Source of the DNA: Thermotoga profunda AZM34c06
Lineage (GTDB): Bacteria > Thermotogota > Thermotogae > Thermotogales > DSM-5069
Direction of reading: 5' to 3'
DNA length: 64,000 nt
NCBI RefSeq assembly: GCF_000828675.1
Contig: NZ_AP014510.1
Location: 1,073,413-1,137,412 of the forward strand
Positions within the stretch are counted from its first letter, which is position 1. Every line of letters starts with the position of its first letter. The notes under the pieces are model-generated. The model saw only the letters and a list, made by a program, of their open reading frames with translations, was not told where the DNA came from and ran no database searches. Below, piece after piece: positions 54,783 to 57,324 of the stretch. The position numbers and the translations under genes are program-made.

Positions 54783-55379
54783 TCATCCTTCAAGATGACA
54801 CATATCATTCAGATAAAGTATTCTTGGCTGGCTTGTGACATCAATGGCAGTTATAGAAGCATTTTCAAGTTTGAAAGTTTTGTGAAGCGGTATAGGAAGC
54901 TTCAAAACCCAGCAAATGAGCATCCTGATTGCAATTGCATGTGAAACGATTATCACATTTTCAAAAGAATTCTGAGTAATTCTTTCGAATGCCTCAACCA
55001 TTCGTTGTTGTACCTGTTCCAGTGGTTCGACTCCCTGAATTTGAGCTCTTGGATTCGTAGACCATTCATTGTAAAAATCAGCAAATTTTTCAAGAGTTTC
55101 CTTCATTGTCAAACCATTCCAGAGTGATATCTCGCACTCGCGCAACATAGAATCTTTGATTGGTGAAATTGAAAGTTTTTTTCCAATTACCTCTGCTGTT
55201 TGGTAACTTCGCTTCAGAGGGCTTGTGTATATCGCTTGTATAGGCATGTTAGAAAATCTTTGAGCAAGTCTTTCAGCTTGTTCAAATCCCTCTTTGTTCA
55301 ATGGTATATCGACATTTCCTTGCCAGATGCCTTTATCATTCCAAGCTGTTTTTGCGTGTCTTACAAGATATATCCTCAA
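54783..55379 (-). CDS. histidine phosphatase (phosphoglycerate-mutase-like)
   Basis: 198 residues. Catalytic RHA in YLVRHAKTAW, PLNKEGFEQAERLAQRF, SPLKRSYQTAEVIG, and the second His in IIVSHAIAIRML. Broad-specificity or cobalamin-pathway-like (CobC) phosphatases share this pattern. TTG at 55379 gives the usual start MRIYLVRH with GGTGA 5 nt upstream; GTG 55388 and ATG 55385 are in frame, and a longer frame reaches 55508 over the intergenic promoter. Confidence 0.88.
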   Translation of the reverse strand: MRIYLVRHAKTAWNDKGIWQGNVDIPLNKEGFEQAERLAQRFSNMPIQAIYTSPLKRSYQTAEVIGKKLSISPIKDSMLRECEISLWNGLTMKETLEKFADFYNEWSTNPRAQIQGVEPLEQVQQRMVEAFERITQNSFENVIIVSHAIAIRMLICWVLKLPIPLHKTFKLENASITAIDVTSQPRILYLNDMCHLEG

Positions 55380-55501
55380 GATCATCACCAAATTTAATGA
55401 TAACATTAGTGAATGAACACAAAAGTAAAAGTTCAGTTCAAAATGTGAGTCACAAATATCGTCACACATGACTGTCTTATCTAATTCATATATCACAAAA
55501 G

Positions 55502-55530
55502 TTGACAATCTCTATAAAAAAGAGTACAAT
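55502..55530 (+). promoter_or_regulatory. strong sigma-A-type promoter of the exporter leader RNA
   Basis: TTGACA (55502-55507), 17-nt spacer, TACAAT (55525-55530): full -35 consensus and a -10 with one change. Transcription should begin near 55537. Confidence 0.85.
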
Positions 55531-55536
55531 TGGCAA

Positions 55537-55706
55537 CAGAAAATACAGTGAAAGGGGGTATGCAAGGTGAAAGAGATAATTTATTTAAGCCAAATTTCAA
55601 TGGCCAAACTGTTGAAATGCCTTGCATTTACCCTCTGGTTACGCCAGTAAGATAGAATTGATGTTGATCAAAGGGGTTGTGCAAGGCACAACCCCTTTTT
55701 CTTTTT
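55537..55706 (+). promoter_or_regulatory. structured leader RNA with riboswitch-like layout, class unassigned
   Basis: P1: GGGTA-TGCAAGG (55556-55567) pairs with CCTTGCA-TT-TACCC (55620-55633), with a 2-nt bulge. Inside, GCCA (55589-55592) pairs with TGGC (55601-55604); that loop contains TTTCAA (55595-55600), which matches TTGAAA (55612-55617), forming an H-type pseudoknot. A CTGG/CCAG hairpin follows (55635-55647), then an intrinsic terminator (55670-55706). The terminator 5' arm contains TGCAAGG (55680-55686), the same sequence as the P1 5' strand, so CCTTGCA can pair with either. That is the logic of a transcriptional switch. Short frames inside (GTG 55567, 27 codons, with GGGGG 8 nt upstream; ATG 55560, 31 codons) leave peptide-based attenuation as an alternative. 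Confidence 0.66.
55670..55706 (+). terminator. intrinsic terminator in the exporter leader
   Basis: GGGGTTGTGC / GCACAACCCC, a perfect 10-bp stem (13 with flanking A/T) with an AAG loop, followed by TTTTTCTTTTT. It precedes the ABC-2 ATPase gene in the sense direction, so exporter expression requires read-through. Confidence 0.9.
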
Positions 55707-55724
55707 GAGAAGCGAGGTGATACC

Positions 55725-56507
55725 ATGTTTGCCGTGGAAGTAAATAATGTCAGTAAGTATTTTAAGAAGGGCAAAAAAGAGTCCATATATGCAGTCAATA
55801 ATGTTTCTTTCAAGGTACAGGAGGGGCAAATTTTTGGCATACTTGGACCAAACGGTTCTGGCAAATCAACATTGATAAGAATGATAGCAACTCTTTTGAT
55901 TCCAGATGAGGGAAATATAAAAGTGTTTGGTCATGATGTACAGACTGAACCAATCAAGGTACGTAATTTGATTCATCGAGTATCTGTCGAAGCAAGTTTC
56001 TTCAAAAAATTATCGGCAAACGAGAATTTATCATTTTCTGCTGGGATTTATGGATTATCAAAAAGATTTTTAACCGATCGCATAGATCAGCTGATGAATT
56101 CTATGGGATTTGACAAAAAAAGACTAAAAGATCCCATTGAAGAGTTTTCTCGAGGAATGCAACAAAAAATTTCTATAGCAAGAGCTTTTTTAACTCAACC
56201 AAAATTATTACTTCTCGATGAACCGACAACGGGACTTGATCCGAGGGCAAAACTTGAGGTGCAGAAATTGATAATAGAAGCGAACAAAAACGGGAGTACA
56301 GTACTTTTGTCGACGCATGATATGAACGAAGCATACCATTTATGTCATGAAATTTTGATAATCCACGAAGGTAAAGTAGTAATAACTGGGGTTCCGAAGC
56401 AGCTTGTAGAGAATTTGAAGAAAAAATACCCAGATGCCTCACTGGAAACAGTTTTTCTGGAGTACACAGGTAAATCATATGAAGAATTAGAAACAGAGGC
56501 GGTCTGA
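55725..56507 (+). CDS. ABC-2-type exporter ATPase
   Basis: 260 residues. Walker A GPNGSGKST, signature FSRGMQQKISIARAF (LSGGQ replaced by FSRGM, normal in ABC-2 systems), Walker B LLLLDEPTTGLDP, switch His in LLSTHDMNEA. About 25 residues beyond the NBD. ATG at 55725 with GCGAGGTGA; a longer in-frame start at 55677 lies in the terminator. It energises the following permease and exports a drug, lipid or polysaccharide precursor (family range). Its leader RNA probably controls it. Confidence 0.93.
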   Translation: MFAVEVNNVSKYFKKGKKESIYAVNNVSFKVQEGQIFGILGPNGSGKSTLIRMIATLLIPDEGNIKVFGHDVQTEPIKVRNLIHRVSVEASFFKKLSANENLSFSAGIYGLSKRFLTDRIDQLMNSMGFDKKRLKDPIEEFSRGMQQKISIARAFLTQPKLLLLDEPTTGLDPRAKLEVQKLIIEANKNGSTVLLSTHDMNEAYHLCHEILIIHEGKVVITGVPKQLVENLKKKYPDASLETVFLEYTGKSYEELETEAV

Positions 56508-56508
56508 T

Positions 56509-57324
56509 ATGCAAGGTATTATACGCGAAATCAGGGGTGCCTGGGCATTCATTGAAAGAAATTTCAATCTTGTTAAAAGATATTGGAAGTGGGAAGTGGT
56601 TTTTTTGGCTTATACGATAGCTAATACTGCAACTATGGGCTTCATAGGAAAAGGTGCAGTGAGTTTTGGAGCAACAATTGATGTAAATTATTTGGTCATG
56701 TATATGCTCATAGGTTCAATTCTATGGGGTTATTTATCTGTACTCTTTGAGATCGTTGCCGAGACGGTCGCTTGGGAGAGATGGGAAGATACAATTGAAT
56801 ACACCTTCATGGCTCCAGTTAAAAGGACGACTCATTTGATAAGTGTTTGCTTATTCAGTGTTCTCTATGGGATTCTCAGAAGCGGTTTGATTCTCATATT
56901 TGTCTCATTTCTATTCAAACTTAGATTAGTTGGTGCCAATTTCGCAGGAGCAGGATTTGTGTTATTGGTTGCGTCATTATCTTTTATAGGTCTTGGCGTT
57001 GCGAGTGCTGTGTTACCGCTCATCTCTCCAGAAAAAGGTGTTCAGGTTGTACACATCTTTCAAGCATTACTTTTGATGTTTTCAGGCGTTTATTATGAAA
57101 TTGATATTTTACCAGTGTGGATGCAAAAAATAGCCTCATTTTCTCCTGCAACATATGCACTTAGAGGGATGAGAAAAGCCATACTATACGGGAGCGGACA
57201 GTTATATGAAGAAATATTTCCATTGCTTGTACTTGGAATCATATTATTACCAATGGGTATAGTGATCTTCGGTTGGTTCGAAAAATACGCAAAACGAAAA
57301 GGATTGTTGAAACGTAGCGGGTGA
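56509..57324 (+). CDS. ABC-2-type exporter permease
   Basis: 271 residues with six hydrophobic helices. An amphipathic N-terminus (IIREIRGAWAFIERNFNLVKRYWKW) precedes the first helix, and FSGVYYEIDILPVWMQKIASFSPATYALRGMRKA is the conserved C-terminal ABC-2 segment in pieces (ILPVWMQKIASFSPATYAL). Starts 1 nt after the ATPase stop. Substrate unknown; only one permease, so it probably works as a homodimer. Confidence 0.9.
   Translation: MQGIIREIRGAWAFIERNFNLVKRYWKWEVVFLAYTIANTATMGFIGKGAVSFGATIDVNYLVMYMLIGSILWGYLSVLFEIVAETVAWERWEDTIEYTFMAPVKRTTHLISVCLFSVLYGILRSGLILIFVSFLFKLRLVGANFAGAGFVLLVASLSFIGLGVASAVLPLISPEKGVQVVHIFQALLLMFSGVYYEIDILPVWMQKIASFSPATYALRGMRKAILYGSGQLYEEIFPLLVLGIILLPMGIVIFGWFEKYAKRKGLLKRSG

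Follow-up and report, generated by a model that had tools for sequence, protein, structure and literature searches.

A putative ribosome-mediated transcription attenuator upstream of a DrrAB-like ABC-2 exporter in Thermotoga profunda, with related leaders in other phyla

The window analyzed here is a stretch of 64,000 nucleotides from the genome of Thermotoga profunda AZM34c06. Two genes on its forward strand encode a putative exporter: a DrrA-like ABC ATPase (55725-56507, PF00005) is followed by a DrrB-like ABC-2 permease (56509-57324, PF01061 and PF12698). The best named NCBIfam models for the pair are DrrA and DrrB (TIGR01188 for the ATPase, TIGR01247 for the permease), both of which scored under their curated cut-offs. 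No solved relatives of the permease turned up in a sequence search.

The region directly in front of the ATPase gene (55502-55724) had been described, from the nucleotide sequence only, as a riboswitch-like leader RNA. It begins with a sigma-70-type promoter (TTGACA-17-TACAAT, 55502-55530, on the forward strand like all features described below), which matches the consensus at 11 of 12 positions, as the original prediction had it. The long-range helix P1 named there was also found: strand 1, the anti-antiterminator strand at 55553-55568, forms 16 pairs with strand 2 at 55619-55636 (-25.2 kcal/mol). Further downstream lies an intrinsic terminator (55670-55706, -20.9 kcal/mol), which consists of a stem of 13 bp at 55670-55698 with the loop AAG and a U tract, and its 5' arm indeed repeats one of the P1 strands. 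The motif CCTTGCA has two possible partners, P1 strand 1 and the terminator 5' arm, and these pairings are mutually exclusive. In the predicted antiterminator, strand 2 is paired with the terminator segment 55673-55688 (-24.9 kcal/mol). The 173-nt leader as a whole folds better than 200 of 200 dinucleotide shuffles (z -5.0). An internal H-type pseudoknot, which had been proposed as well, was not recovered: the bases in question, TTTCAA and TTGAAA, are part of an ordinary 10-bp hairpin (ATTTCAATGG/CTGTTGAAAT) in the predicted fold, and relatives keep neither the hairpin nor the pseudoknot.

Strand 1 is located within AAAGGGGGTATGCAAGGTG, which reads as a Shine-Dalgarno (SD) sequence followed by a GTG start codon. 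The SD sequence AAAGGGGG and the start codon (55567-55569) together span 55551-55569 and precede a leader ORF of 27 codons (MKEIIYLSQISMAKLLKCLAFTLWLRQ) at 55567-55650. Strand 2 falls within the last third of this ORF, and the stop codon is located 19 nt ahead of the terminator stem. In the window, promoter and exporter gene thus enclose a leader ORF that has its own ribosome binding site; this ORF recurs as an open frame in relatives, where SD sequence and start codon are found at the same position and again constitute strand 1. The earlier structural account of P1 stands in its pairing, but it missed that strand 1 is the SD sequence and start of the 27-codon ORF, a frame which it had itself named as a possible refutation.

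A search of Thermotogota with the permease gave close orthologues in about 25 genomes, and we then read the DNA upstream of the ATPase genes. The candidate attenuator was present in 19 of the 21 orthologues with readable upstream DNA, with differing helix sequences; the remaining two (G002 and G004) showed no attenuator. This comparison, which had been suggested together with the original prediction, lends support to the on/off logic put forward there, namely that P1 permits the terminator to form while the alternative pairing allows read-through. In Kosmotogaceae-like and Mesotoga-like genomes the attenuator is located about 450-950 nt upstream of the ATPase gene, with small ORFs in between. 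Relatives from many phyla were gathered by a scan of named genomes and by further phylum searches, which are the basis for placing L164 and L192. The same logic of SD/start, late ORF and terminator arm was found in Caldiserica (L074), in Anaerolineales and other Chloroflexota (L079, L080, L094, L112, L119, L135, L164), in Firmicutes (L084, L107, L145, L192) and in Muiribacteriota (L086). Among relatives the helix sequences are largely replaced with the pairing retained, and the gap between stop codon and terminator stem measures 13-26 nt in nearly all leaders. A promoter check covering part of the relatives gave weak matches only. When the family genomes were searched with the leader at the nucleotide level, only the counterpart in G008 rose above background beyond the leader's own genome.

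To assess the dual complementarity, we looked between start region and terminator for 18 consecutive nucleotides that have strong pairing to the SD/start region as well as to the terminator 5' arm. Duplex energy served as score and dinucleotide shuffles of the linker stretch as null. An ungapped variant, which permitted no internal loop and clipped the terminator loop, for these reasons failed to detect the window (p 0.34); the duplex-energy test took its place. For strand 2 in the window the test gave z 5.3, a level that 0 of 300 linker shuffles attained. Every Thermotogota leader tested gave p 0.007 or better, and outside this phylum the values were p 0.0033 for both L074 and L079 and p 0.010 for L086. 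Some high-GC leaders from Chloroflexota and Firmicutes (L100, L113, L114, L132, L201, L204 and L205) did not go beyond their shuffles and are not counted as support; L097 (p 0.09) was left out as well. Across both strands of the 64-kb window, in which just three terminators qualified, the only pair of an SD-preceded ORF and a terminator of this kind is the one described here.

Spacing and reading frame point to a translated leader. Among the four closest leaders (L037-L040) the gaps between strand 1 and strand 2 are 9, 3 and 3 nt, all multiples of three; after the stop codon the gaps are not all multiples of three. ORF length is equal in ten pairs of close leaders. All 31 of the 31 scored leaders keep frame 0 open as far as strand 2 extends, versus 4 and 12 in the other frames; this count is not unbiased, since leaders from phyla other than Thermotogota had been chosen partly for an ORF that ends close to the terminator. 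The leader peptide is barely constrained, as judged from pN/pS values of 0.66-1.4, which fits with the leader's translation mattering more than its product.

Several related loci carry further elements near the attenuator. Between attenuator and ATPase gene, L148, L150, L151, L153, L071 and L073 contain a small ORF of 33-34 codons whose product ends in SRPHYL (e.g. MKRLRGSRNVFIDGLVERQKVEIESKFSRPHYL). In contrast to the leader peptide, this ORF of Mesotoga-type operons shows purifying selection, with pN/pS of 0.16-0.41 among diverged pairs; it has no Pfam match and no NCBIfam match above cut-off, and possibly encodes an unnamed small protein that is co-produced with the exporter. In L047, L048, L053, L054, L055 and L061 it is preceded by a second short ORF with a common LPPFI motif (e.g. 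MYIVISSPRKKRENDVAALPPFIYRPESFMDFPK), which matches neither Pfam nor NCBIfam. L043 and L050 have another pair of short ORFs at the same place upstream of the ATPase gene, e.g. MHQKRIKSVIKIDRTIEKIREETLKDIGFIRERGRLL and MSKKKHYHNSIYRGAKSSPVEIEKKVNKIHYELLKRLMRIGGGGL, again with no family matches in Pfam or NCBIfam. Tandem terminators, often GGCCGTGGGC...GCCCACGGCC, are located between leader ORF and ATPase gene in several Chloroflexota (L079, L088, L097, L100, L113). Rfam detected a T-box leader and a TPP riboswitch in the flanks of two related loci, at L100:2038-2280 (- strand) and L039:3420-3530 (+ strand), outside the attenuator.

Computation gave the two alternative pairings and showed them again in leaders of largely different sequence; it also gave the open ORF with its spacing and the flip predicted by folding. 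These results are best explained by a ribosome-mediated transcription attenuator of the ermK/vmlR/mef(E)/bmrB kind, a reading to which we assign a probability of roughly 0.87. In a leader left to itself, or once a ribosome has passed quickly to the stop codon, strand 2 would be held by strand 1 or be covered by the ribosome; with strand 2 occupied, the terminator would form 19 nt past the stop codon and the exporter would stay off. A ribosome stalled on the first few codons, for instance by a ribosome-targeting antibiotic, would mask strand 1, i.e. the ORF's own SD sequence and start. Strand 2 would then be free to pair with the emerging terminator 5' arm, and transcription would run into the DrrAB-like exporter genes. 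This scheme implies that the ORF is translated and that stalling acts as the trigger; the stalling agent would probably be an antibiotic, presumably the one that the pump exports. An effector of the exporter such as a toxic small molecule had already been guessed at as ligand. The guess survives in altered form, with a ribosome-stalling antibiotic as the likely effector and the ribosome rather than an aptamer as its sensor.

In the computed fold of the whole window leader the terminator dominates with a pair probability of 0.93. If the RNA up to start+14 is removed, which mimics a ribosome parked on the first codons, the minimum-energy fold changes to the antiterminator, while the terminator drops to 0.21. 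In about half of the other leaders, removal of strand 1 brings no flip at equilibrium. In these the order of synthesis (strand 2, terminator 5' arm, then 3' arm) would have to favor the antiterminator. By the modeled geometry, moreover, the exporter should be switched on by stalls in about the first five codons and by no later ones, and a ribosome that has reached the stop codon should not interfere with terminator formation.

In a more specific version of this reading, which does not exclude the general one, the attenuator would respond to a macrolide- or ketolide-like drug in particular, via an Arg/Lys-X-Arg/Lys motif at the first codons. Leaders of Erm(K), Erm(D), Mef(E) and Msr(A) have such a stall site, MRLR (PMC4335068), and +X+ is known as the stall motif of macrolides and ketolides (PMC8298421). 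In our leaders Arg or Lys makes up 29% of codons 2-6 versus 14% of later codons in the same peptides (p 0.0001), and the full motif within codons 2-7 occurs in 10 of 32 leaders with 2.9 expected (p 0.0001), although the leaders are mutually related and these tests overstate their independence. The motif is still seen in 7 of 24 leaders of a thinned set (p 0.007), and 18 of these 24 have Arg at codons 2-6, compared to 39% of control genes (p 3e-4). Examples resembling the known stall motif include MIFRNR, MIFRSR, MTIRTR, MMMRLK, MILRFR, MVRRFR and MRWR. However, most leaders are devoid of the full motif, as is the window peptide, which begins MKEIIYL and offers Lys2 only; ordinary genes carry early Arg/Lys as well (20% of codons 2-6). 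Because of the kinship among leaders, which inflates the tests, and the single Lys2 of the window peptide, we take the enrichment as a hint that provides a lead rather than a result, and consider a macrolide-like trigger a tentative option to be held at well under even odds.

Alternatively, the attenuator might be a general sensor of poor translation, responding to slow initiation or elongation or to ribosome damage instead of one drug class. The weak constraint on the leader peptides agrees with this, and for vmlR, induction by defects in ribosome assembly has been described as well (PMC9226507). The enrichment of early Arg over control genes suggests some sequence dependence nevertheless, and we regard a general sensor as rather unlikely. 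Sensing of charged tRNA during amino-acid starvation, as in the trp or his operons, would follow an identical strand logic, and the early Arg codons could in principle report arginine supply. Yet the listed leader peptides lack a run of any single amino acid, and an exporter rather than a biosynthetic operon is controlled here, which makes this explanation highly improbable.

The least probable reading, with hardly any likelihood left to it, is a riboswitch of unknown class that binds a metabolite or an ion and has its aptamer closed by P1: P1, the terminator and the strand exchange do resemble an expression platform, but the frame between the P1 strands is open, strand 1 is SD sequence and start codon in relatives too, lengths between the strands differ by multiples of three among close relatives, the internal hairpin is lost in relatives, and neither a conserved aptamer core nor a pseudoknot was found when we looked for them in homologues. 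Rfam matched nothing anywhere in the window at the gathering score and gave background matches only for 55300-55900 at permissive thresholds, so that, as the original prediction had anticipated, the region matches none of the known Rfam classes. The evidence thus favors a leader ORF with ribosome-mediated attenuation over the riboswitch-like class first proposed.

By its sequence and modeled folds, the window leader appears to have the features of ribosome-mediated transcription attenuators, and several described systems can be set beside it. In vmlR of Bacillus subtilis a uORF is likewise part of an anti-antiterminator hairpin, and stalling frees the antiterminator and blocks the intrinsic terminator (PMC9226507). 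That uORF has only three codons (MIN) and controls an ABC-F protein (PMC9226507), whereas the leaders described here have ORFs of 23-35 codons with strand 2 late in the ORF and an ABC-2 exporter as target. The bmrB-bmrCD system of the same species also combines a translated leader ORF and a terminator in front of a drug ABC exporter and is induced by ribosome-targeting antibiotics (PMC4191407). There the terminator is located inside the coding region and the transporter is BmrC/BmrD (PMC4191407); here the terminator follows the stop codon, the exporter is DrrAB-like and translation of the leader is predicted. The erm(K) and mef(E)/mel leaders share the short leader peptide and the terminator exchange, and mef(E) controls efflux (PMC4335068). 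They differ in having 8-14 codons, other targets and stalling at Arg/Lys-X-Arg/Lys, while in our case stalling is a presumed step and the window peptide is without the motif.

In summary, the proposed mechanism is of a known kind, and its setting is new and broadly distributed. We came across no account of this attenuator, either in Thermotogota or in front of this exporter clade, in the open-licence literature that we searched. With somewhat better than even confidence we propose that an old and widespread attenuator family, with members in Thermotogota, Caldiserica, Chloroflexota, Firmicutes and Muiribacteriota, allows antibiotics that stall ribosomes to induce one clade of ABC-2 exporters via arrest at the first codons, with the leader's own SD sequence as part of the switch. 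A candidate orphan riboswitch is moved to a different class, and a widespread, uncharacterized exporter clade obtains a testable function. Complementarity of SD/start, late ORF and terminator arm, combined with a nearly fixed gap between stop codon and terminator, provides a signature for further searches. Antibiotic-inducible attenuators are known mainly from Firmicutes. If the mechanism holds true in Thermotogota and Chloroflexota, this would point to ribosome-based drug sensing as a widespread trait of deep-branching bacteria.
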